Shown here one piece after another: positions 20,945-41,616 of a DNA stretch of 64,000 nt. A program made the translations under genes and the position numbers. The DNA is from Vreelandella andesensis (lineage in GTDB: Bacteria; Pseudomonadota; Gammaproteobacteria; Pseudomonadales; Halomonadaceae): the NCBI RefSeq assembly GCF_003989795.1, contig NZ_RZHG01000026.1, forward strand, positions 1-64,000, written 5' to 3'. Position 1 is the first letter of the stretch; the number at the start of each line of letters is the position of its first letter. Below the pieces are notes generated by a model. The model had not been told where the DNA came from. It did no database searches and saw only the letters and a program-made list of their open reading frames with translations.

Positions 20945-22156
20945 TCAGGCATGACTAATTGCTTCAAGACGACAACTGTTACGTAGATGAGAGGTAACTC
21001 GTTCGCAAACGCGACCATCGTTCATGGCGGCATGGCGTGCTACAAAATTTGCCAAGCGCTGATGATGGTGCTTTTCAACCAACGACTCCCAAGCGTCAGG
21101 AAATTGTTCCCAAGATTCAATAACCGGGCCTGGCGCATCAGCAAAATAATCACCATAAACTCCTACATCGAGGTTGAGATAATCATCCAGATCAGGGGCC
21201 ATTAAGATAATAGGACGGTTCAAACATGCATAATCGAACATTAAGCTCGAGTAGTCAGTGATGAGCACATCTACTGCCGGGAACAAAGCATTGACATCTG
21301 GAAATATACTCACCGGCGCTTCACGTATACTGGCATTACCCTCCATCAGTGCTTGTACACCACTCATTTTCAAAGAAGCGTGCCCGCGAATAAGCAATAG
21401 CAGACGGTGCTTTTCTAGCCATGGCAATAGTGTTTGTAGGCGCTTTCCTTGCGACACATCAAGCCCTCCTTTGCCCTGCATTCTTAGAGTCGGCGCGTAT
21501 AGCAACACTTTGTTAAACGCAGAAGTATCGATACCAGCTTTCTGCAATAGTATAGACGCGTTTTCTCGGAAGGCATCCCATCGGGGATAGCCAAGCGCAG
21601 TGACACGATCGCTTGGCAAACCAAATGCAGAGATCATGCGCTCCCGACCAACGCCGGAAGCCACCAGTACTTGTTGAGGCCTGCGCTGACCAGGTAACAA
21701 CCTGCGCAGATATCGATCAAACACGACTGTAAAAACACCAAGTCGAGAAGACCGAGCATCCTGAACCAGGCGTTTAAGGGGAGTACCATGAGTTAAATTG
21801 ATGAGCTGCCCGCCGAACGATGCATGCGCATTAATGTCTTCCGCTGAGTGAGTAACCAGAAACAATCGTGCACGCAATGACAACAGTATTCCTTTGGCAG
21901 AGTAAGCAAGATAGGCTTCCCCACCTTCTTCACGAACTCGCTTAACCACCTCTTGATCATGGGCCAGCCAAACTGCACGTAAGCTAGGCTCATGATCACG
22001 AACATGGCGATACAAATAGCTGGTATTGTCAGCAAACTGTCGCCCGTGCCAAGCTCCAAATATCCATAGGCGATCATTGCGCGGGTAACATCCGCCAATC
22101 AGGCACAGCGGTAACCATGCCAACTGCTTTGCTAAACGAAGTGTGTATGAAGACAT
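20945..22156 (-). CDS. CDP-glycerol:glycerophosphate glycerophosphotransferase-like
   Basis: 403 aa of the TagB/TagF family, which moves glycerol phosphate from CDP-glycerol onto a glycan or poly-glycerophosphate chain at the inner face of the membrane. Family parts are WIFGAWHGRQFADNTSYLYRHV, LTHGTPLKRLVQDAR, LYAPTLRM, and DVLITDYSSLMFDYACLNRPIILMAPD, with the two active-site His regions. ATG 22156 follows AAGGAAATCACA. The TagD gene that makes CDP-glycerol is 40 bp upstream, so the polysaccharide probably carries glycerol phosphate. Confidence 0.88.
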   Translation of the reverse strand: MSSYTLRLAKQLAWLPLCLIGGCYPRNDRLWIFGAWHGRQFADNTSYLYRHVRDHEPSLRAVWLAHDQEVVKRVREEGGEAYLAYSAKGILLSLRARLFLVTHSAEDINAHASFGGQLINLTHGTPLKRLVQDARSSRLGVFTVVFDRYLRRLLPGQRRPQQVLVASGVGRERMISAFGLPSDRVTALGYPRWDAFRENASILLQKAGIDTSAFNKVLLYAPTLRMQGKGGLDVSQGKRLQTLLPWLEKHRLLLLIRGHASLKMSGVQALMEGNASIREAPVSIFPDVNALFPAVDVLITDYSSLMFDYACLNRPIILMAPDLDDYLNLDVGVYGDYFADAPGPVIESWEQFPDAWESLVEKHHHQRLANFVARHAAMNDGRVCERVTSHLRNSCRLEAISHA

Positions 22157-22196
22157 TGTGATTTCCTTGTCACTATCGCCGTCAGTCAACGGATTA

Positions 22197-22658
22197 TTAA
22201 CCGAAGTCTTTTCTTAACGTATCGAGCACGTCGAAGGCATTCATTAACTCCTCACGTGAAACGCTGTAAAAAGGATTAAGCGAGCGTTTCAATTGAGTCG
22301 TAGAGACACCATCGGTGCGCGGCAGATATACCACTTCGCAGTGAGGCAAAAGAAAATCAAAGTGGCCTTTCCAGTCATCACCAATAGCAAAAGTGTCTAC
22401 TGAATAGCGCTTGATATCCTGAATCTTTTGTTCCCAGTCAGTCTCAGGGATCACTTGGTCGACATAGCGCAAGGAGCGCACAATCTCGGCACGGTGCTCG
22501 AAGGGAATCAACGTACGCTTACCCTTAACAGTATTGAACTCATCCGTAGAAATGCCCACCATCAGCCGATCCCCCATATCAGCTAACCGTCTAATTAGAT
22601 TCAGATGGCCAATATGAAACATATCAAAGGTTCCATAAGTAATTATCGTCTTAGTCAT
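22197..22658 (-). CDS. tagD: Glycerol-3-phosphate cytidylyltransferase
   Basis: 153 aa, small nucleotidyltransferase making CDP-glycerol from CTP and sn-glycerol 3-phosphate. The HxGH signature is in ITYGTFDMFHIGHLNLIRR near the N-terminus, and RTDGVSTTQLKR is the RTxGISTT motif of the family. ATG 22658 follows GGGGGCGAACTC. It is followed by a matching glycerophosphotransferase. TagD is best known from Gram-positive teichoic acid synthesis; capsule loci of some Gram-negatives also carry it. Confidence 0.92.
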   Translation of the reverse strand: MTKTIITYGTFDMFHIGHLNLIRRLADMGDRLMVGISTDEFNTVKGKRTLIPFEHRAEIVRSLRYVDQVIPETDWEQKIQDIKRYSVDTFAIGDDWKGHFDFLLPHCEVVYLPRTDGVSTTQLKRSLNPFYSVSREELMNAFDVLDTLRKDFG

Positions 22659-22684
22659 GAGTTCGCCCCCTTTGCTCACTCAGT

Positions 22685-25065: not shown

Positions 25066-26271
25066 TTAAACCGTTAAGTTCATAACGTCATTAAGCACTT
25101 GGCACGTCTTATCAATCTCTCCCTGAGTGAGTGTCGGGTGACACAAAAACATCAGGCTAGTTTGGCCAAGCTCTCTGGCCACGGGTAAACTGCTTTGAGG
25201 CTGCCAGCCAGCATTTACAAAGGCTTTTTCGAGATATACCTCAGAGCAGCTTCCCGAAAAACAGGGCACACCTCTCAGGTTAATCTCATTCAAAATACGA
25301 TCGCGATCCCAACTTGGCCCTAGCTGTTGTGGGTCAATAAATACATAGCATTTATAAGCGCCATGCTGGGTATTTTGATTTGATGTTTCAGAAACTATAT
25401 CTGAACAAAAAACAGGAACACGCAACGCGGGACAATCAACTGCTGCTTTCCAAATACGCTGAGCATTCGTCTGGCGATTCGCGCTCCACTCGGGCATCCG
25501 TTTTAGTTGAATACGGCCTATTGCGGCCTGCATTTCAGTCATACGCCAGTTGGTGCCAAACGTTTCATGCAACCAGCGAAAACCGGGGGGGTGCTTTTGT
25601 TCATGGACTGCCTCCCAGCTCTTGCCATGGTCTTTGTAGGCCCACATGCGCTTCCAGAGCGCGGTGTCGTTCGTAGTGACCATGCCTCCTTCACCACCAG
25701 TGGTCATAATTTTATCCTGACAGAACGACCAACAGCCGACGTGACCGATACCACCTACGCTTTGGCCTTGGTAACGGGCGCCATGAGCCTGAGCACAATC
25801 TTCAATTACATAGAGTCCGTGCTGTTCAGCCAACGCCATCAGTTCGCGCATTTCGCAGGGCCAGCCCGCCAAATGCACGGCAATAATAGCGCGAGTACGC
25901 GGGGTGATTTTTTCAGCCACTGTGGCGGCAGTAATATTTTGAGAGTCACGATCAATATCAGCAAAGACTGGCACCGCACCGGCATTTGCAATGCTTGATG
26001 CTGAAGCCACATATGTTCGAGAAGTAACGATTACCTCTTCATTATTTTTTTCGCCAATTCCTAATCCTTTTAATGCTAAGTCTAATGCGTTGGTGCCGTT
26101 GGCTAAGGCAATAGCATGCTTAGTCTCGGCGAAATGAGCGAATTCCTTCTCGAATTCAACGCACTCATTACCCGTCCAATAGTTCACCTTGTTAGAAAGC
26201 AATACATTCTGAACAGCCTCAGCCTCTTCTTGTGTGAAGGAAGGCCAGGGAGAAAATGGTCCGTTAAGCAT
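25066..26271 (-). CDS. DegT/DnrJ/EryC1 family sugar aminotransferase
   Basis: 401-aa PLP enzyme that aminates a keto-sugar nucleotide. ANGTNALDLALKGLGIG, the Asp of YVIEDCAQAHGARYQG and the Lys of WSFCQDKIMTTGGEGGM (PLP Schiff base) are present. With the WbpM/CapD-type dehydratase at 33040-35037 it would convert a UDP-4-keto-6-deoxy-HexNAc to the 4-amino sugar. It overlaps the upstream ATP-grasp gene by 8 bp. No PglD-like acetyltransferase is in the locus. Confidence 0.9.
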   Translation of the reverse strand: MLNGPFSPWPSFTQEEAEAVQNVLLSNKVNYWTGNECVEFEKEFAHFAETKHAIALANGTNALDLALKGLGIGEKNNEEVIVTSRTYVASASSIANAGAVPVFADIDRDSQNITAATVAEKITPRTRAIIAVHLAGWPCEMRELMALAEQHGLYVIEDCAQAHGARYQGQSVGGIGHVGCWSFCQDKIMTTGGEGGMVTTNDTALWKRMWAYKDHGKSWEAVHEQKHPPGFRWLHETFGTNWRMTEMQAAIGRIQLKRMPEWSANRQTNAQRIWKAAVDCPALRVPVFCSDIVSETSNQNTQHGAYKCYVFIDPQQLGPSWDRDRILNEINLRGVPCFSGSCSEVYLEKAFVNAGWQPQSSLPVARELGQTSLMFLCHPTLTQGEIDKTCQVLNDVMNLTV

Positions 26272-27340
26272 GGCTTGGCCCCATAGTTAATAGATCTTTT
26301 TCATTCATGACGACCGGCTTCTCATCCACGTCTCTTAGAAATATAGTGCCTTGGGGAAACTCGTAATGTTTGTAAGTATGGGAAAAATGCTCAGAATTAA
26401 GATTTGCCTCAAGATAATCTAAAGGCAGATTCGCCCCTGCCTTGGCCAATGAGGAAACAAAAGCAACAAACCTTACATTTATTTCGGTTATCATTGGATT
26501 TCCCTGCGCATCTTCTTTAAAATCTACTGTAAAAACTCCATTAGCCTTAGAGTGATACTGATTAAAAAAGTAACTAATCGCTTCATCAGCAATTTTTACA
26601 AGCTTCGGATCATTAATCATTCGCCCAAATGCAGTATTGCCGGTTATTCCAGAAGGCGCGACCTTAGACATAATATACGTTACCCTCTCGGCACAAGCAG
26701 AACGCAACATCTTTCCGTCCATATAAATAACCTTACACGCAAGATTTCTACCAGGAAGAAACTCTGATGCAATAAATTCTTCAATAAGGGGGTTAATTCG
26801 CATCCATTCCTCAAGCTCTTTTTTACTGGTGATTTTCAAAGATCCCAGACCACTTGAACCCACGGTTCCACGAACCCAAAAAGGATAGCCAAGCGTTAGA
26901 TCATTACTTTTTGATCCATTTAAAAAAGTGCTATAGCGGGGTATATAAGGCTTATCTTCTAACACTTTATGAAGCGTCTTCTTATCTATTAGCGCTTCAG
27001 TTGGTTGACTTGATGAAATAAATGTTTTGCAAGGCAGTCCTTCCTGGTCCTTACGTTTTGACCATGCTACCACCTCTACTTCAGGCAACACCACGGCAAA
27101 TTTAATTTGATGAAGGTCAATTATTTGGGAGATTTTTGACCAATAACATTCATCATTGGCTCTGGGTACTAAATAGGTGTAACTATAAGAAAATTTATCA
27201 TAAAGGCCTATCGCTAATGGGTTAGCATCAACACCAATAAAGCGATAACGATCAGTTCCAGAATCAAGAACTGATCTGACAAAACTGCGTGGCGTAGGAC
27301 CACCGACACCAGTGACAAGGATATTAATTTTCTCAGCCAT
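26264..27340 (-). CDS. ATP-grasp enzyme (carbamoyl-phosphate synthase-like fold)
   Basis: 358 aa. The N-terminal pre-ATP-grasp domain begins INILVTGVGGPTPRSFVRSVLD. The ATP-grasp core has a Lys-type P-loop (LGYPFWVRGTVGSSGLGSLKITSKKE), EEFIASEFLPGRNLACKVIY and the metal site DFKEDAQGNPMITEINVRF. I chose ATG 27340 after AAAGGTGG; a start at 27358 is possible. It overlaps both neighbours (PglC-like transferase and DegT aminotransferase), so its product probably belongs to amino-sugar making, for instance ligating an amino or organic acid to the 4-amino group. That role is inference. Confidence 0.82.
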   Translation of the reverse strand: MAEKINILVTGVGGPTPRSFVRSVLDSGTDRYRFIGVDANPLAIGLYDKFSYSYTYLVPRANDECYWSKISQIIDLHQIKFAVVLPEVEVVAWSKRKDQEGLPCKTFISSSQPTEALIDKKTLHKVLEDKPYIPRYSTFLNGSKSNDLTLGYPFWVRGTVGSSGLGSLKITSKKELEEWMRINPLIEEFIASEFLPGRNLACKVIYMDGKMLRSACAERVTYIMSKVAPSGITGNTAFGRMINDPKLVKIADEAISYFFNQYHSKANGVFTVDFKEDAQGNPMITEINVRFVAFVSSLAKAGANLPLDYLEANLNSEHFSHTYKHYEFPQGTIFLRDVDEKPVVMNEKDLLTMGPSHA

Positions 27341-27956
27341 TTTTTCCACCTTTGTCATTTTGCAGTTTTGACTCTTTGAAATTTGGCATCGCTACGTCAC
27401 CTGAGTAACTGATACCTTCGCGAACAAACACCTTCTTCACTGTTAATAGCAATATTTTGATATCTAACAGCATTGTCTGGTTATCTACATACCAAATATC
27501 GTAATCAAATTTTCTTTCCCAAGAGATGCCATTACGTCCATTCACTTGGGCCCAACCTGTCACACCCGGGCGCACCTCATGTCGCCTAGCTTGGTAGGTG
27601 CTGTAATAAGGTAAATATTCCATTAGCAACGGCCTAGGACCTACCAAGCTCATATCCCCTTTCAGCACGTTCCATAGTTCAGGTAGTTCATCCAAGCTGG
27701 TAGCACGTAAGCATCGACCAAAGGTAGTTAGACGCTCTTTTTCTTGTAACTTGTTGCCTTGCTCGTCATAAGGATCTCGCATGGAACGAAACTTGACTAT
27801 TTCAAAAGGTTTTCCGTTTAGTCCCGGGCGATATTGTCTAAAAAGAACAGGCGTGCCTAGTTTATAGCGGATCAATAACGCTATAATAACTAGAACTGGT
27901 GATAGCAATATCAATCCCATTATAGAGATAGCAATATCAAACTGTCGCTTAATCAT
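27333..27956 (-). CDS. PglC/WcaJ-type initiating sugar phosphate transferase
   Basis: 207 aa with a single N-terminal re-entrant hydrophobic segment (residues 9-30) and the catalytic core of the small polyprenyl-phosphate hexose-1-phosphate transferases: PVLFRQYRPGLNGKPFEIVKFRSMRD, ATSLDELPELWNVLKGDMSLVGPRPL, and RHEVRPGVTGWAQVNGRN. It moves a sugar phosphate from UDP-sugar to undecaprenyl phosphate to start repeat-unit synthesis. The length matches the PglC form rather than the 460-aa WcaJ form. Its amino-sugar donor probably comes from the neighbouring aminotransferase. Confidence 0.93.
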   Translation of the reverse strand: MIKRQFDIAISIMGLILLSPVLVIIALLIRYKLGTPVLFRQYRPGLNGKPFEIVKFRSMRDPYDEQGNKLQEKERLTTFGRCLRATSLDELPELWNVLKGDMSLVGPRPLLMEYLPYYSTYQARRHEVRPGVTGWAQVNGRNGISWERKFDYDIWYVDNQTMLLDIKILLLTVKKVFVREGISYSGDVAMPNFKESKLQNDKGGKNG

Positions 27957-27998: not shown

Positions 27999-28904
27999 CT
28001 AAGAACGCGGCCTTAAATTTAGCATCTTCCACACCACAAGCTTACCCATAGCTTTCATTTCTTTGTATTCGAAATTTATTCCTGGGTTATATATTTTACT
28101 GCTCGCCTGGCAGTAAACAGGCTTATTAGAGTTTCTATTTATCATTTTAGCTTGCTCAGCATCACCTTCAATATATAAACGAGCAGATGAATTTCTAAAG
28201 GCTTCCGATTTAAATTTGGCAATCGAAAAATTATCCATATTATTTAATTCAACATCGTTATTCACCATTATCAAATTAGTAAAACTGACACTATTTAATT
28301 TAAGCCAATCGACTACTTTTTGACGCTGCAGCTCATGCCGGCAAGAAACTATTGTATTTACTTTCTGAGAAGGCAAATAACTAGACTTAATAACATCTTT
28401 ACCATTACTTTTATTAATTGAAATAACGCCCTCCAGAGAAATACAAGACTCTTCTATTATTTTATGATGAAATATATTCCACTCAAACACTCTAGGCAGT
28501 GGTATAAACTCAATAACAATATTAACATCATTCCTAACGGGCTTATTAGAATAAACCGCAAGAGTTGTTATTCGTTTTTTCAGAAAGTTGGGGATGGATT
28601 TCATCTCCTTCCTTAAAGAATCACCACTTAATATACTATCATCAACCAATAATATCTTATTTGCATCCCAGGGCTGGGAAATATTATTTTTAATACCACG
28701 TGTCACCCCTTTTTTTAACGGGAAATTATTTACCAACGAAGATATGTCAGTACAGTTAACATTTAATGCAAGTGAAATAATGTAAGCAGGTATCATCCCA
28801 CTTCTTGGTATACCAACCACTAAATCCCAATTGCCCGATATTTTATCAAAGTTTTTTTTGATATCGCTATTTAAATCAGCGTAAGATTTAAAGAAAATCT
28901 GCAT
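27999..28904 (-). CDS. Phosphoribosyltransferase domain fused to a degenerate HAD-like domain
   Basis: 301 aa, markedly AT-rich. The N-terminal half is a type I PRTase: DLVVGIPRSGMIPAYI and the PRPP loop KILLVDDSILSGDSLRKEM (about residues 94-112). The C-terminal half resembles a HAD phosphatase (CRHELQRQKVVDWLKLNSVSF, FKSEAFRNSSARLYIEGDAEQA), but where motif I (DxDG) is expected the sequence reads SLEGVISIN, so the nucleophile seems lost. ATG 28904 follows AGGGGATATTGTCT. Such fusions occur in surface-polysaccharide loci; the reaction is not known to me. Confidence 0.7.
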   Translation of the reverse strand: MQIFFKSYADLNSDIKKNFDKISGNWDLVVGIPRSGMIPAYIISLALNVNCTDISSLVNNFPLKKGVTRGIKNNISQPWDANKILLVDDSILSGDSLRKEMKSIPNFLKKRITTLAVYSNKPVRNDVNIVIEFIPLPRVFEWNIFHHKIIEESCISLEGVISINKSNGKDVIKSSYLPSQKVNTIVSCRHELQRQKVVDWLKLNSVSFTNLIMVNNDVELNNMDNFSIAKFKSEAFRNSSARLYIEGDAEQAKMINRNSNKPVYCQASSKIYNPGINFEYKEMKAMGKLVVWKMLNLRPRS

Positions 28905-28930
28905 AGACAATATCCCCTGTTTTATTTTTT

Positions 28931-30434: not shown

Positions 30435-31496
30435 TTAACTTACGGCATCAGGTGAAATATTCGTCGAACATTTATTTTTCGAATAATAGTCACAATACCA
30501 GTCAGTAAAGTTTTTAATGCCTTTATATATCGGCGTGGAGGGTTTATAGCCTACCATTTTTTCTAATTCGCCTGAGTCTGCGTAAGTATCCAGCGCATCT
30601 CCCGCCTGTAGAGGTAAAAATTCTTTAATGGCTTTTTTACCTAGTGCTTTTTCAATAGCTTCGATATAAACACTGATCGATACCGGATCGTTATTACCTA
30701 TATTAAAAAGCCGAAACGGTGCATTACTGGTAGCTGGGTCAGGGCTGTCACTATTCCACTCCTGAGCTGGGGTTGCAATGTCATCACTGGCACGGATAAT
30801 TCCCTCCACAATATCATCCACATAAGTAAAGTCGCGTGTGTGGTGGCCATAGTTGAATACCTGAATAGGTTCATTCGCCAAAATATGCTTAGTAAATTTA
30901 AAGAGTGCCATGTCTGGACGTCCCCACGGTCCATAGACAGTAAAAAACCTAAGCCCAGTCGTCGGCAATCCAAACAGGTGACTATAACTATGCGCCATCA
31001 TTTCGTTAGCTTTCTTAGTGGCTGCGTAGAATTGCAACGGATGATTTGCTCCATTGTGCTCAGAAAATGGCATTAGCGTATTAGCACCATAAACGCTGCT
31101 GGTACTGGCGTAAGTCAGGTGAGCAACCTTAGCGTAGCGGCACGCTTCTAATATATTGGTAAAACCAGTCACGTTGCTTTCCACATAACTTAGAGGGTTT
31201 TCCAGTGAGTAGCGTACGCCAGCCTGAGCAGCAAGATGAATAACTCGATCAAAATGGTGTACTTCAAAACATTTCTTCACCGCTTGTTGATTAGCTAAAT
31301 TGGCACGAATGGAAAAGTAGTTGCTTTTCGTCTCACTAGCCGTTTTTTCAAGTATGTTTAGCCGCGCTTCTTTTATCCTGGGGTCATAATAATCATTAAC
31401 GTTATCAAAACCGACAATACTATCTCCCCGCTCTAGCAGTCGTTTAGCAGTGTGAAAGCCGATGAATCCAGCGTGGCCGGTAACTAGAATCTTCAT
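30435..31496 (-). CDS. UDP-glucuronate 4-epimerase-like NAD-dependent epimerase
   Basis: 353-aa extended [23 protein letters not shown] binds NAD; STSSVYG and the YxxxK of [20 protein letters not shown] are catalytic; [20 protein letters not shown] is characteristic of UDP-glucuronate 4-epimerases. The ATG at 31496 follows GGAG at 7 nt, so the longer frame to 31559 is rejected. Next to ugd, it would convert UDP-GlcA to UDP-GalA. Confidence 0.9.
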
Positions 31497-31545
31497 ACAG
31501 TGACTCCATGACAAAACAACCAAGAGCATTAGGAAGGGAGACAGT

Positions 31546-32742
31546 TCAGTTACGGACAAGACGTTGAATGTGTTGCCAACTCACCCGCCTCAAACCATCC
31601 AAGGTTAAAGGCACTAGTGCCATTGAACGCACCATGGTAAGTATCGGGCGCGGAAGCTTGTTTAAACATAAGGTTCGAGGTAGCCCGGTATAGGGGAACC
31701 AGCGTTCATGATAAGAGCCCTGATGAGCCAAAAGCGGCAAATCTCCCTTGAAGCGTGACGGGACGGCATACCAGGCATAATTACCCTTCAATGTCTCTAT
31801 CTCTTCAGTACCAGGCTGCAAGAATTCAAAATCGATGATTTTGAGTCCCTGGCAAGGGTCATAAATCAAATCTTGTGGAGTGAGATCAATACACTCGTAG
31901 CCAAGACGTCGGTAGTGCAAGATAACGGCTCTCACACGTTCTATTGTCCAGATAGGCAGTAACCCATGGGGTGAGAAAGGCGCACGGGGCGATAGTATCC
32001 GCTCCATGCTATTGGAATAGCGCTCAAATACTAAGTAATGGGGCCCTACCTCCAGCAAACGCGATACTTCAGGTAATGACGCTCCCAATTCACGGGCTTG
32101 CACTTCACGCTCTAAATACCGTTCACGACCTGGGCGAAACGTTTTACAAATTGCTTCTGTACCGTGAAATTCCACCAGTTCAACCTTGGCTCGACACACT
32201 TGCTTACTCAAGTCGGCCAGAACGGGATATGGCGTACGAAATTGCATGTTATAGCGCTGAGATGCTGTGCGTAATTTATCTATCCGGTGTGGCACTATTT
32301 GATTTAGAAATTCAAATGTGTCCGTAGTGTTACGCGACAAATATAGCGGGCTGTATTGCTCTTGGCTGCTGCGGCCCTTGTTGACCTTTTGGTTTAGCAG
32401 TGTTTCGACTGTAAGCAACCGTGCATTGTCAATTCGCCCGGGCGCTTCTCTTGAAGACGGCTGCTCCATCACAGGGTGAACATCGTGCACTACTAAAAAG
32501 TAAACTGGCAGACCGGCATTGTCTGGCCACTTTTCAGACACCTGCTCTACGCCATCAATCCACTGCGCTAACGTTTTTCGCTGCTCCTCTTGAATTGTCA
32601 TTTCGTGCAAAATATTGAAACCATAGCGATCCAGCAAGCTATGTAAAACATCTAAATATGCTAGCCCACGCTCTCTTATTACAAGAACAGCCATACCGGT
32701 TAGCCACTCCTGCTCCTCGACATCACGTTGTTTATTCATCAT
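31546..32742 (-). CDS. NDK-like N-terminus fused to a kinase-like domain, unknown function
   Basis: 398 aa, no transmembrane segment. Residues about 17-160 look like a worn nucleoside-diphosphate kinase ([24 protein letters not shown] at the start, [12 protein letters not shown] where NDK has its His-containing loop, so the catalytic His is missing). Residues about 190-340 look like a protein- or sugar-kinase fold: [23 protein letters not shown] (Lys and Glu), YLVFERYS (hinge), [13 protein letters not shown] (catalytic loop) and LKIIDFEF (DFG-like). AAGGAG precedes the start. It lies 49 bp before the epimerase gene. Domain reading is by eye; function unknown. Confidence 0.6.
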
Positions 32743-33039: not shown

Positions 33040-35037
33040 TTAGCTTTCTTTAGTGGCTGGATTAAGTATTGGATCGAGCCGAGTCATTGAACTGACAAAA
33101 GGAGTTGTATTTAGGTGTTGAGGCTGCGTTTTGTGAAGCGTGTTTTGACGAGCCATCCATACTAAGTCGGCAATATCGTCTAGAGGGTGATAATCCAGAG
33201 GAGCCGATTGTAAAAGTTGTCGAATACGCAAATGGTCTGTTTCAGCAAAGGATTGTTCTAGTTCTCTTAAAAAAGCTTCAAGCCTAGGCCATTCCCAGAA
33301 ACGTTCTTTTGACGTCATAATACGATCATGTCGCGTCTTACTAACGTCGTCACCAATCAACAGCTCCTCATATAACTTTTCGCCTGGTCGCAAGCCGGAA
33401 TAAACGATCTCAATATCACCTTCGGGGTGACCGGCATCTTTAACTTCGAGCCCTGAAAGTCGAACCATATTCATTGCCAAATCTAATATACGGACGGGTT
33501 CGCCCATATCGAGCACAAACACCTCGCCGCCCTCGCCCATCGCGCCAGCCTGAATAACCAATTGAGCGGCTTCAGGAATCGTCATGAAATAACGGGTGAT
33601 CTCCGGATGGGTTACCCTGATAGGGCCTCCCTGCTCAATCTGCTTGCGAAACAACGGAACAACAGAGCCACTAGACCCCAGCACATTTCCAAACCGCACC
33701 ATGCAGAAACGTGTATTTGACTGGGCGTGGGCGAATGCTTGGCAAATAAGTTCGGTCAACCGTTTGGAAGCCCCCATCGCATTGGTGGGACGTACTGCCT
33801 TATCGGTGGAAATAACAACAAAAGTTTCTACACCCGCTGTCATTGCTGCCTGAGCTAGGTTTAAGGTGCCAAAGACATTGTTGCTGACTCCCTGAACAAG
33901 GTTAAACTCGACCATCGGCACATGTTTGTAAGCTGCTGCATGGTAGACGGTATGCACTTCAAAGCTTTCAAATACCGCCTTCAGGCTAACCACATGCTCA
34001 ACTGATACAAGCAGCGGTTTTAGCTCGCATCGTGAATGGGTCGTTTCAATTAGCTGCCTCAACTCCTGCTCAATGGCGTACAGGCCAAATTCGCAGTTGT
34101 CGACCAACAATAGCCGTATTGGGTTTTGAGCAAGTATCTGACGGCATAACTCACTGCCAATTGACCCGCCTGCGCCGGTCACCATGACTGCCTTATCTTG
34201 GATATTGGCTTGCAGTAACTCAGCAAAAGCTGGCACTGCCTCTCTTCCCAATAGGTCCTCGAGCGCCACGTCATGAAGCTCACTAATTTTTGCTCTTCCA
34301 GCAATCACATCGGCGCTACCGGGAATCGTTTTTAGAGGCACGGAAAGGCCAGAAAGCCAATGTAATATCTCACGTCGACGCCACCGTGGAGCGCTGGGAA
34401 TTGCGAGCAAAACCATAGCAGCCTGATGCTCCTGAACCAAAGCGGCTAATGCAACCGGCTGATGAACCCGCAGCCCTTCGACCATGGTGCCTTCTAGCCC
34501 TCGCCAATCGTCTACAAAAGCCACCGGTTCATATTCTTCACCATGGCGAAGTGCATCAACCAATTCGCATCCCGCTGCCCCCGCTCCGTAGATCACCACT
34601 GGCTTACGCTGACGGCGCTGGCTATAGCGATACAGTTCACGTATTAAAAAACGCAGACTTCCAATGCCTAATAGAAGAAGGAGTGGGTAAATAACAATGA
34701 CGGATAGCCCGATAGCGTGTTCAACCATGTAACTTACCGGCACCACCATCAGTGCAGACGTCACTACCGCCATAGCAACTGTCGGCACAGTGACATGGCT
34801 CATGTAGCGAATCACTATTCGATATAGCCCGAGCCAGTGGAAAAGCAAAAGGCTTGTCGGCACCAGCAAGCCAATAGCCATCCAGAGGGAACCGTCTTCT
34901 AGCGGCTGAAGACTTTCCATATGAATCATTGTAGCCAGCTGTAAACTACTGGCTACAATCACGCTATCCAGCAAAACCAGTACTCTGCGTTTTATCCAGC
35001 GGGGCGTCACCGATAACGACTTCATTAAACTATCCAT
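33040..35037 (-). CDS. WbpM/CapD-family UDP-HexNAc 4,6-dehydratase
   Basis: 665 aa in the inner membrane. Four N-terminal hydrophobic helices (about residues 15-125) precede a CoA-binding-like domain (VVIYGAGAAGCELVDAL) and a catalytic SDR domain (VMVTGAGGSIGSELCRQIL near 290, AAAYKHVPMVE, STDKAVRPTNAMGASKR, GLRPGEKLYEELL). In place of the SDR Tyr the family uses a Met (NAMGASK), which is seen. It makes UDP-4-keto-6-deoxy-HexNAc, the substrate of the DegT aminotransferase. AAAGGG lies 7 nt before the start. Confidence 0.93.
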   Translation of the reverse strand: MDSLMKSLSVTPRWIKRRVLVLLDSVIVASSLQLATMIHMESLQPLEDGSLWMAIGLLVPTSLLLFHWLGLYRIVIRYMSHVTVPTVAMAVVTSALMVVPVSYMVEHAIGLSVIVIYPLLLLLGIGSLRFLIRELYRYSQRRQRKPVVIYGAGAAGCELVDALRHGEEYEPVAFVDDWRGLEGTMVEGLRVHQPVALAALVQEHQAAMVLLAIPSAPRWRRREILHWLSGLSVPLKTIPGSADVIAGRAKISELHDVALEDLLGREAVPAFAELLQANIQDKAVMVTGAGGSIGSELCRQILAQNPIRLLLVDNCEFGLYAIEQELRQLIETTHSRCELKPLLVSVEHVVSLKAVFESFEVHTVYHAAAYKHVPMVEFNLVQGVSNNVFGTLNLAQAAMTAGVETFVVISTDKAVRPTNAMGASKRLTELICQAFAHAQSNTRFCMVRFGNVLGSSGSVVPLFRKQIEQGGPIRVTHPEITRYFMTIPEAAQLVIQAGAMGEGGEVFVLDMGEPVRILDLAMNMVRLSGLEVKDAGHPEGDIEIVYSGLRPGEKLYEELLIGDDVSKTRHDRIMTSKERFWEWPRLEAFLRELEQSFAETDHLRIRQLLQSAPLDYHPLDDIADLVWMARQNTLHKTQPQHLNTTPFVSSMTRLDPILNPATKES

Positions 35038-36300: not shown

Positions 36301-38118
36301 CTAGAGATTCGCCATCATCTGGAAGGTATGATTACGGCTGGCCAATTCGTCGTAGGTGCCGGCATCCGTAACTCGTCCGCCTTCAAGCATGTAGATAATG
36401 TCGCAGTCCTTTACTGTTGCTAGGCGGTGGGCAATCATCACTACGGTCATCTGACCAGAAAAATGCTTGATGTCTTCCATCACGCGGCGTTCGGTAATGC
36501 CATCCAGGGCACTGGTCGCTTCGTCGAACACCAGCACTTTGGCGTGCTGATAAAGGGCGCGCGCGATCCCCAAACGTTGGCGCTGCCCGCCTGATATTTG
36601 CACCCCGCGCTCGCCAATATGAGTTTCGAGTCCCTCGGGGAATCTATCCAGCAGATCATCAAGTTGCGCCATGCGTAGCGCTTCCTTGACTCTTTCGACA
36701 TCAATATCCTTACGCTCGATAGCAAATGCGACGTTTTCGAGAATGCTGGCATCGGATAAGAATATCTGCTGAGGCACGAACCCTACCCCAGCCTGCCATT
36801 GCCGTATGTTTTCCTGGGTTAAAGGAACACCATCAATCAGTACATGTCCTTGCCGAGGCTCAATCAGGCCCAGCAGTAAATCGATAGCCGTGCTTTTGCC
36901 ACTACCCGAGGAACCGACTATAGCCACCATCTTATTGACCGGTATGGTCAACGTCAGCCCGTCAAGTGCCAGGGCTCGCGTTCCTGGATAGTCAAAGACC
37001 ACGTCTTCAAGTTTGATATCTTGCTGAGGTACCCAGGGCGTTATCGGAGCGGATGTCTGAGTGTCACTAACAGCGACAGCACTATTTTTCGACTCATCAC
37101 GACTAGCTATCAGATCATCACGAATGACGTTGTAAGCCGCCAAGTTGCCGCGGATTTTCGTAAGTGAGGTATATATCTTTTGAAAACCGGGTAGCATTTT
37201 GAAGCCTGCCAGCGCATAGATGGAAAGTGCCGGTAGAATTGCCCCAAGGTTGCCGTCGTAAAGGTTAAGCAAATAAAGCACCAGCACAATAACCGAGCCG
37301 AAGGCCACCAACTCAATGGCATAACGGGGAGCATCACTAAGTCCCTGCGTTACTCCCTCACCACGCGCGATACTATTGCAGGCATCATCAAAACGTGAGG
37401 TAAAATTTTCCTGACGATGTAATAAAAGCAGATCTTTAATCCCTCCGAACCCCTCACTCATCAATTTAAAGCGTTTAGATTGCGCTTTGGAAATCCGCTT
37501 GCCATTGCTGATAAGAAAACGGCGAACTGTTTGATAAAGCAAAAGGTAGGTGCCAAAAAAGACCACCACGCCGACAATTGCCACCAGCGGGTTGTAGAGA
37601 AAAATGGCTAAGGTCATGAGAGACACCATGACCAACTTAGCGTTTAGTTCCATGGCAGGGTTAATGATCTTAATAGTGACGCGTTGAACTTCCGCAGACA
37701 CCTTAGCGGTCAGGCCGCTAGTATTGTAGTTCGAATGAAACAACCAGGGCTGGTAAAGGTAATAGCGGTAAAGGCGGCTTGAGAGCTCCGCTCCCACTCG
37801 AGCGCTATAGAGCGCCAGGCGCCACGAGGTATATATAGAAAGTAGCGCCGCCATCAACAAAACGCCGAGCACCATAGCACCCAACAAGCTCAAGAAAGCT
37901 CTGGGGCTTTGCAAGCCGGAAGCGCTATAAGCCATTGCAAGCCAACCATCGCCCTGGAGCTTACTCATATCACCTACAACCGCCATGAAAGGCCCGATAG
38001 CCACCACCCCGGCGATCTGCGCCAGCGCCATACCGATAATCAGTATCTGGAGCCTCAACAATTGGCGCCGCTGTTGCTTAGTCAACAAAGAATAAAGTTC
38101 GCGCAATTGCTTCAGCAT
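36301..38118 (-). CDS. ABC transporter (PglK/MsbA-type flippase)
   Basis: 605-aa half-transporter: six hydrophobic helices in the first 330 residues, then an ATPase with Walker A GSSGSGKST (near residue 400), Q-loop, signature ISGGQRQRLGIARALY, Walker B VLVFDEATSALD and a switch His in MIAHRLATV. It lies in the capsule locus between wzc and wzy, and no Wzx is present, so it is the best candidate for flipping lipid-linked repeat units, as PglK does. Starts 6 bp after the wzc stop. Confidence 0.88.
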   Translation of the reverse strand: MLKQLRELYSLLTKQQRRQLLRLQILIIGMALAQIAGVVAIGPFMAVVGDMSKLQGDGWLAMAYSASGLQSPRAFLSLLGAMVLGVLLMAALLSIYTSWRLALYSARVGAELSSRLYRYYLYQPWLFHSNYNTSGLTAKVSAEVQRVTIKIINPAMELNAKLVMVSLMTLAIFLYNPLVAIVGVVVFFGTYLLLYQTVRRFLISNGKRISKAQSKRFKLMSEGFGGIKDLLLLHRQENFTSRFDDACNSIARGEGVTQGLSDAPRYAIELVAFGSVIVLVLYLLNLYDGNLGAILPALSIYALAGFKMLPGFQKIYTSLTKIRGNLAAYNVIRDDLIASRDESKNSAVAVSDTQTSAPITPWVPQQDIKLEDVVFDYPGTRALALDGLTLTIPVNKMVAIVGSSGSGKSTAIDLLLGLIEPRQGHVLIDGVPLTQENIRQWQAGVGFVPQQIFLSDASILENVAFAIERKDIDVERVKEALRMAQLDDLLDRFPEGLETHIGERGVQISGGQRQRLGIARALYQHAKVLVFDEATSALDGITERRVMEDIKHFSGQMTVVMIAHRLATVKDCDIIYMLEGGRVTDAGTYDELASRNHTFQMMANL

Positions 38119-41604: not shown

Positions 41605-41616
41605 CACGCTACCGCC
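41605..41616 (-). promoter_or_regulatory. RfaH ops element in the wza leader
   Basis: On the minus strand GGCGGTAGCGTG, a 12/12 match to the ops element that recruits the antiterminator RfaH to elongating polymerase. It lies 28 bp upstream of the wza start codon in the untranslated leader of a unit that runs more than 20 kb. Position and strand are exactly as needed. Confidence 0.9.

Follow-up and report, generated by a model that had tools for sequence, protein, structure and literature searches.

The window examined here, a stretch of 64,000 nucleotides from Vreelandella andesensis, carries within a polysaccharide operon a gene whose product is best described as a member of a kinase family of polysaccharide loci that has no name, in which the kinase-like part has a partner resembling nucleoside diphosphate kinase (NDK-like) and, in relatives, a nucleotidyltransferase-like (NTase-like) partner as well. 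Computation supports the two folds, the existence of three-domain relatives, the joint loss of the NTase-like domain and the NDK motif, and the position in the operon. We give about an even chance to the reading that the protein is a kinase-fold phosphotransferase acting on a sugar, a polyol or a lipid-linked glycan of the surface polysaccharide, with an NDK-like half that is a dead scaffold and with a three-domain ancestry. The family, nameless in the annotation libraries searched, sits in loci by which halophiles shape their surface polymers. Its members form a graded series, from proteins with three intact domains, through proteins whose NTase-like motif is worn, to proteins from which the NTase-like domain is gone and in which the NDK motif is lost. 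Such a series shows which of the parts rely on others, and it offers a way to test what an NDK-fold domain does outside nucleotide metabolism. If the protein were truly a glycan kinase, the presence of phosphate on these polysaccharides would become predictable from the genome.

The gene and its operon

The gene is an open reading frame of 398 codons on the minus strand of the window (31546 to 32742), with its ATG at 32742 and its stop codon ending at 31546. A ribosome-binding site, AAAGGAG, immediately precedes the ATG. The encoded protein is 37 to 85% identical to 17 aligned homologs, and these homologs, together with the low dN/dS described below, argue that the frame is more than a chance one.

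The gene belongs to a co-directional run that extends from a Wza-like gene (ending at 41607) down to a glycosyltransferase gene (19925). The first part of the run encodes Wza, Wzc, an ABC-type flippase-like protein (36301 to 38118, minus strand), Wzy, a FlaA1-type UDP-sugar dehydratase that is the upstream neighbor (33040 to 35037, minus strand), the NDK-kinase protein, a UDP-glucuronate epimerase-like protein that is the downstream neighbor (30435 to 31559, minus strand; the listed frame begins at TTG) and UDP-glucose dehydrogenase. The rest comprises a PRTase-like protein, an initiating sugar transferase, an ATP-grasp protein, a DegT aminotransferase, glycosyltransferases and a TagD/TagF-like pair, made up of a cytidylyltransferase (22197 to 22679, minus strand; PF01467, E 6.9e-24) and a glycerophosphotransferase (20945 to 22189, minus strand; PF04464, E 5.6e-53). 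The names of the operon genes come from reading the sequences, with Pfam added for six of them. The preliminary description had placed the gene next to sugar-nucleotide genes, and the operon is indeed one for a polysaccharide.

Two other members of the run deserve mention. The phosphoribosyltransferase-like protein (27999 to 28910; PF00156, E 2.3e-8) has about 180 extra residues and relatives in many carrier loci. The ATP-grasp protein (26264 to 27358) is of a carbamoyl-phosphate-synthase-like kind (NF009402, E 5.8e-18, below the cut-off), and its reading frame overlaps both the initiating sugar transferase gene and the DegT gene.

A predicted NDK-like fold without the NDK site

A full-length AlphaFold2 model built from 18 sequences (mean pLDDT 67.6) was good in its N-terminal half and poor in its kinase half. 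Residues 12 to 171 (32230 to 32709, minus strand) are predicted to adopt the NDK fold. When this half was compared with the PDB by Foldseek, 44 of the best 50 rows were NDKs by title and 6 were radial-spoke or axoneme complexes, which contain NDK-domain subunits; the best E value was 1.3e-3, so that none passes 0.001. With VIA-align, all 50 of the matches listed were NDKs, the best reaching Z 10.9 (rmsd 3.5 Å over 130 residues, model residues 15 to 170). At the position where relatives carry the catalytic His (N-x-x-H-G-S motif in NDK), the window protein has Tyr134. The preliminary description had recognized just this, an N-terminal NDK-like part devoid of the catalytic His, and the comparison of predicted structures that it proposed as a check recovered both the NDK and the kinase folds rather than neither.

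The sequence searches are blind to this relationship, which is drawn from the predicted fold and the motif. Pfam gave no PF00334 row for the window protein, for 18 full-length homologs or for 18 isolated domains; a profile search of the PDB with the NDK-like domain returned six rows, none of them an NDK; and hhalign against the NDKs of the order gave a probability of 2%, the 25 aligned columns being the catalytic-motif segment. Since the catalytic His and a PF00334 match were both looked for and neither was found, we do not file the front half as an NDK. An ordinary NDK is encoded elsewhere in the window genome. Searching the 369 genomes of the class with the NDK-like domain alone retrieved G283, a genome discussed below, and six rows at E 0.03 to 0.09.

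Other identities for this half were considered and set aside. DUF3939 and DUF4865 each matched 1 of the 18 NDK-like domains, TauD matched 2 of the 18, and DUF4865 matched 2 of the 18 full-length proteins in Pfam; on residues 132 to 187 of the window protein, DUF3939 scored 20.8 bits against a cut-off of 21.3. All of these were taken as chance matches.

The kinase-like half

The quality of the full-length model led us to predict the kinase half (residues 168 to 398; 31549 to 32241, minus strand) alone. This model, based on 26 sequences, has a pLDDT of 91.4 and a pTM of 0.86 and shows the fold of the protein-kinase-like superfamily. Foldseek returned 1668 matches at E ≤ 0.001, VIA gave Z 12.1 to CDKL1 (145 residues) and Z 11.4 to RioK1 (178 residues), and a profile search of the PDB found kinases from E 8.9e-8. 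The Lys, the Glu, the D-x-x-x-x-D and the DFE noted in the preliminary description are indeed in place, as Lys200, Glu213, Asp286-LTPQ-Asp291 and Asp304-Phe-Glu. Lys200, Glu213, Asp286 and the Asp304-Phe-Glu triplet, hence the Lys, the Glu, the catalytic-loop Asp and the DFG-type Asp expected of a kinase, are kept in all 24 family proteins. At position 291 the 13 proteins of the window's genus all have Asp, and the other 11 have the usual Asn.

No curated family claims the protein: neither half exceeds any cut-off in the annotation libraries searched, Pfam gives no row at E ≤ 1 for the kinase half, and no PF06293 (Kdo/WaaP) row was obtained for the window protein. Among relatives, PF00069 was detected in 7 of 26, with a best E of 2.7e-5. 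By its predicted fold and its residues, then, the back half is a member of the kinase-like superfamily that lies outside every curated kinase family searched. Several of these observations count against a glycan kinase, namely that protein kinases are the closest PDB matches by both sequence and fold, RIO kinases ranking high as well, that WaaP and WbdD are not among the matches listed for this half, that Pfam has no row for it, and that Asp291 replaces the usual Asn. The Ser/Thr protein kinases and RIO kinases, although closest among the matches listed, differ from the window protein, whose short C-lobe ends in a long basic helix. This amphipathic helix (residues 365 to 398; 31549 to 31650, minus strand) is seen in the model and contains 6 K/R and 1 D/E in its 34 residues.

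One could imagine that both halves are inactive and that the whole protein is a scaffold. No canonical glycine-rich loop is evident ahead of Lys200, a Cys rather than the His of HRD stands two residues before Asp286, and the change of Asn291 to Asp in the genus would also suit a pseudokinase. However, the conservation of Lys200, Glu213, Asp286 and Asp304 in 24 of 24 proteins and the 91% identity of the kinase half across the genus speak against inactivity, and parts of the canonical motifs are often absent from kinases with small-molecule or glycan substrates. We therefore consider a pseudokinase quite unlikely.

A third domain in relatives

In nine of the 24 family proteins the open frame runs 230 to 345 codons ahead of the homologous part, and this additional N-terminal stretch aligns with a stand-alone NTase-like protein. 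We call it NTase-like on the basis of a G-E-D-I-D-I-L-like motif and of matches to PF14907 that fall short of its cut-off, seen in 5 of 8 members with E 0.02 at best; a profile search of the PDB with this domain gave no match. Four of the fused proteins (G167, G161, G957 and G981) keep this motif intact; in the other five (G133, G175, G975, G989 and G189) it is worn. Three of the latter genomes (G133, G175 and G989) have an additional stand-alone NTase-like homolog directly downstream, and both stand-alone homologs that were aligned (G133 and G175) possess the motif. In G283, which belongs to another family of the same class, a single protein unites the NTase-like and NDK-like parts and the next gene encodes the kinase, in surroundings that read as LPS or glycan genes; the kinase product falls just under the PF06293 cut-off (21.1 bits against 21.3). 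The occurrence of the fused, stand-alone-neighbor and split arrangements suggests that the three parts act together. The window genome gave no match to the stand-alone NTase-like protein in a search run without a positive control. As a side observation, a protein of about 310 to 340 residues is encoded after the stand-alone NTase-like gene (L008:9857-10879 and L059:7488-8417); it has matches in four loci (G189, G133, G175 and G989), and its L008 copy gave no Pfam or NCBIfam rows.

The state of the NDK motif follows that of the third domain. All 9 three-domain proteins have the complete motif, N-x-x-H-S-x-D, and none of the 15 two-domain proteins does (the NDK-domain alignment, A9, holds 17 of the 24 family domains and that of G283). 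Within the window's genus, the motif Asp is gone from all 13 proteins and the His position holds a His in seven, a Tyr in four (one of them the window protein) and an Asp in two. The kinase tree places the two-domain form in two groups, implying 2 changes (1 is not ruled out), so that the link between NTase-like loss and motif loss rests on one or two events.

The two halves also differ in constraint. In the window's genus the kinase halves share 91% identity on average and the NDK halves 53%; in the fused group the corresponding means are 59% and 48%. Among the 13 genomes of the genus, with synonymous sites near saturation, median dN/dS is 0.033 for the kinase half (68 of 78 pairs usable) and 0.217 for the NDK half (54 of 78), the latter value indicating that purifying selection still acts on the NDK-like half. 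Taken together, identity, dN/dS and residue counts indicate that the kinase is the part kept for its own sake and that the NDK-like half keeps its fold but not its site. The nine NTase-bearing relatives with an intact NDK motif suggest that the NDK-like part was probably functional once. To judge from these alignments, the two-domain form is probably the remnant of a larger three-domain protein, a point absent from the preliminary description. The adaptor role which that description gave to the NDK-like part fits the loss of the motif from a retained fold, and would be a plausible though conjectural one.

Proposed function

We infer from the fold and the residues that the C-terminal half binds ATP and transfers phosphate, and the enzyme is probably active. 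Given the locus and the precedents of WbdD and WaaP, the acceptor may be a sugar, a polyol or a lipid-linked glycan of the polysaccharide made by a Wza/Wzc/Wzy-type locus. The composition of the C-terminal basic helix would permit a peripheral contact with the membrane, and the NDK-like half, its site lost and its fold retained, would serve as a catalytically dead scaffold or docking domain. Its ancestor was most likely an NTase-like, NDK-like and kinase-like protein, from which the NTase-like domain would have disappeared in the window's genus.

WbdD, the capping kinase-methyltransferase of the Escherichia coli O9a O antigen, is described as phosphorylating the terminal mannose through a eukaryotic-type kinase domain (PMC3482155). 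Like the window protein, it combines a kinase-fold domain with a second domain and is encoded in a polysaccharide locus. As far as the descriptions allow comparison, the two differ in that the partner of WbdD is a methyltransferase and its pathway depends on an ABC transporter, whereas the window protein has an NDK-like partner and a Wzy-type locus. The WaaP/Kdo kinases (PF06293), as described, are likewise kinase-fold enzymes of a pathway for cell-surface glycans; the window protein differs in lacking a PF06293 match and in having the NDK-like half. The resemblance to NDK (PF00334) concerns the predicted fold of residues 12 to 171 and, in the three-domain relatives, the motif; the window protein lacks both the motif His and a PF00334 match. 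In humans, POMK with fukutin/FKRP offers what we take to be a functional parallel only, in which a glycan kinase is joined by a CDP-polyol phosphotransferase on the dystroglycan glycan; a search of the window genome with the NTase-like protein gave no match.

It is tempting to speculate that the ancestor was a three-step phosphotransfer machine in a single chain, with a kinase, a phosphohistidine-forming NDK-like domain and a nucleotidyltransferase fold, which phosphorylated a glycan and then built or transferred a phosphodiester. It would be a convergent counterpart of the POMK-fukutin route, its NDK-like domain would have acted as a phosphate relay or as a module binding the nucleotide donor, and the window protein would represent the reduced, kinase-only end. 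We regard this scenario as unlikely.

Distribution and neighborhoods

Among the 275 genomes of the window's taxonomic family, 24, from two of 24 genera, encode such a protein. So do eight named Vreelandella and Halomonas records, and the protein of Vreelandella alkaliphila DSM 16354 (L007) is 84% identical to that of the window. A search of 369 genomes of the class matched three others: G528, with a two-domain protein (25% identical), G308, with two overlapping reading frames, and G283, with the split arrangement. G528 was excluded from the 24-genome counts and from the identity and dN/dS analysis, and G308, with its gene in two frames, from the kinase alignment, the motif counts and the kinase tree; loci of a genome present in two collections were counted once. 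In G308 the relative (L024:1004-2112) occupies overlapping frames that differ in phase, and a stand-alone NTase-like gene adjoins on the opposite strand. Among 398 genomes of the phylum, nine besides the window's gave short matches to the kinase part, and the two inspected were Ser/Thr protein kinases. A mobile element was considered and rejected, since no protein match was obtained in 72,556 plasmid records (E 0.01) or 50,697 phage records (E 0.1). A part in anti-phage defence was considered and rejected: the PADLOC rows were weak (best E 1.9e-4, for a relative; 0.02 for the window protein) and the neighbors are polysaccharide genes. In the titles and abstract openings of the open-access literature we recognized no paper on an NDK-kinase fusion, and the excerpts of a study of EPS deletions in Halomonas (PMC9232590) mention no kinase.

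All 24 genes lie among polysaccharide genes. The FlaA1 gene is found upstream in 19 loci, adjoining the kinase gene or separated from it by a single gene that has a ParB-like motif, and the downstream content is variable, with a TagD-like gene in 14 loci and PRTase-like genes in several. As the genes downstream of the retained kinase differ from locus to locus, its neighbors do not identify the substrate. A sugar or a protein of the pathway, the targets proposed in the preliminary description, would both be candidates, and the interpretation given there is supported in part. In G147 a Wza-Wzc-flippase-Wzy-FlaA1 block, 65 to 69% identical, is followed straight after FlaA1 by a PRTase-like gene, with no kinase; the existence of so similar a locus without the gene makes the kinase look like an accessory enzyme. 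The flippase (E ≤ 1e-100) occurs in 48 of 161 genomes of the family, and five of these are kinase carriers. A flippase-specific partnership was thus dismissed as not exclusive.

These arrangements bear on the possibility that the enzyme is a protein kinase, which would act on the polysaccharide machinery (for instance the flippase, Wzc, the polymerase or a glycosyltransferase) and regulate chain length or export, with the NDK-like half docking the target. Its nearest PDB relatives by profile and fold would agree with this, as would the place of the gene after FlaA1, mostly by a conserved export block with varying genes downstream. On the other side, the gene is missing from G147, which has the same export block, and from 43 of the 48 flippase genomes, and glycan kinases share the kinase fold. 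A protein substrate is the main rival of the reading that we prefer, but regulation of this kind seems to us somewhat unlikely.

A teichoic-acid-like decoration has also to be weighed, in which the kinase would phosphorylate the glycan and TagF would then extend it from CDP-glycerol. Of 14 carriers, 8 have PF04464 genes (E < 1e-40) no more than about 11 kb from the kinase gene, and of 187 non-carriers, 4 have them at any place in the genome (Fisher p 2e-8, a value overstated because the genomes are related to one another), and the 14 loci with TagD-like genes point the same way. Yet the other 10 loci show no TagD-like match in the stretch examined, several stretches ending early, and the kinase is equally conserved there. 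As a specific partner, CDP-glycerol chemistry was set aside as enriched but not exclusive, and we hold this form of decoration to be very unlikely.

The neighborhoods hold one more gene of interest, that of the ParB-like motif. It encodes about 280 residues (L007:6958-7806, L008:6355-7299 and L059:11421-12158) and includes the stretch G-Q-H-R-Y-A-V-I-S-A-L-G, which to our eye recalls ParB-like folds; Pfam at E 0.1 listed nothing for the L008 copy. A search of the window for this gene gave no match, and an A+T-rich gap of 297 bases lies at that place. In 11 of the 24 loci, this gene adjoins the NDK-kinase gene.
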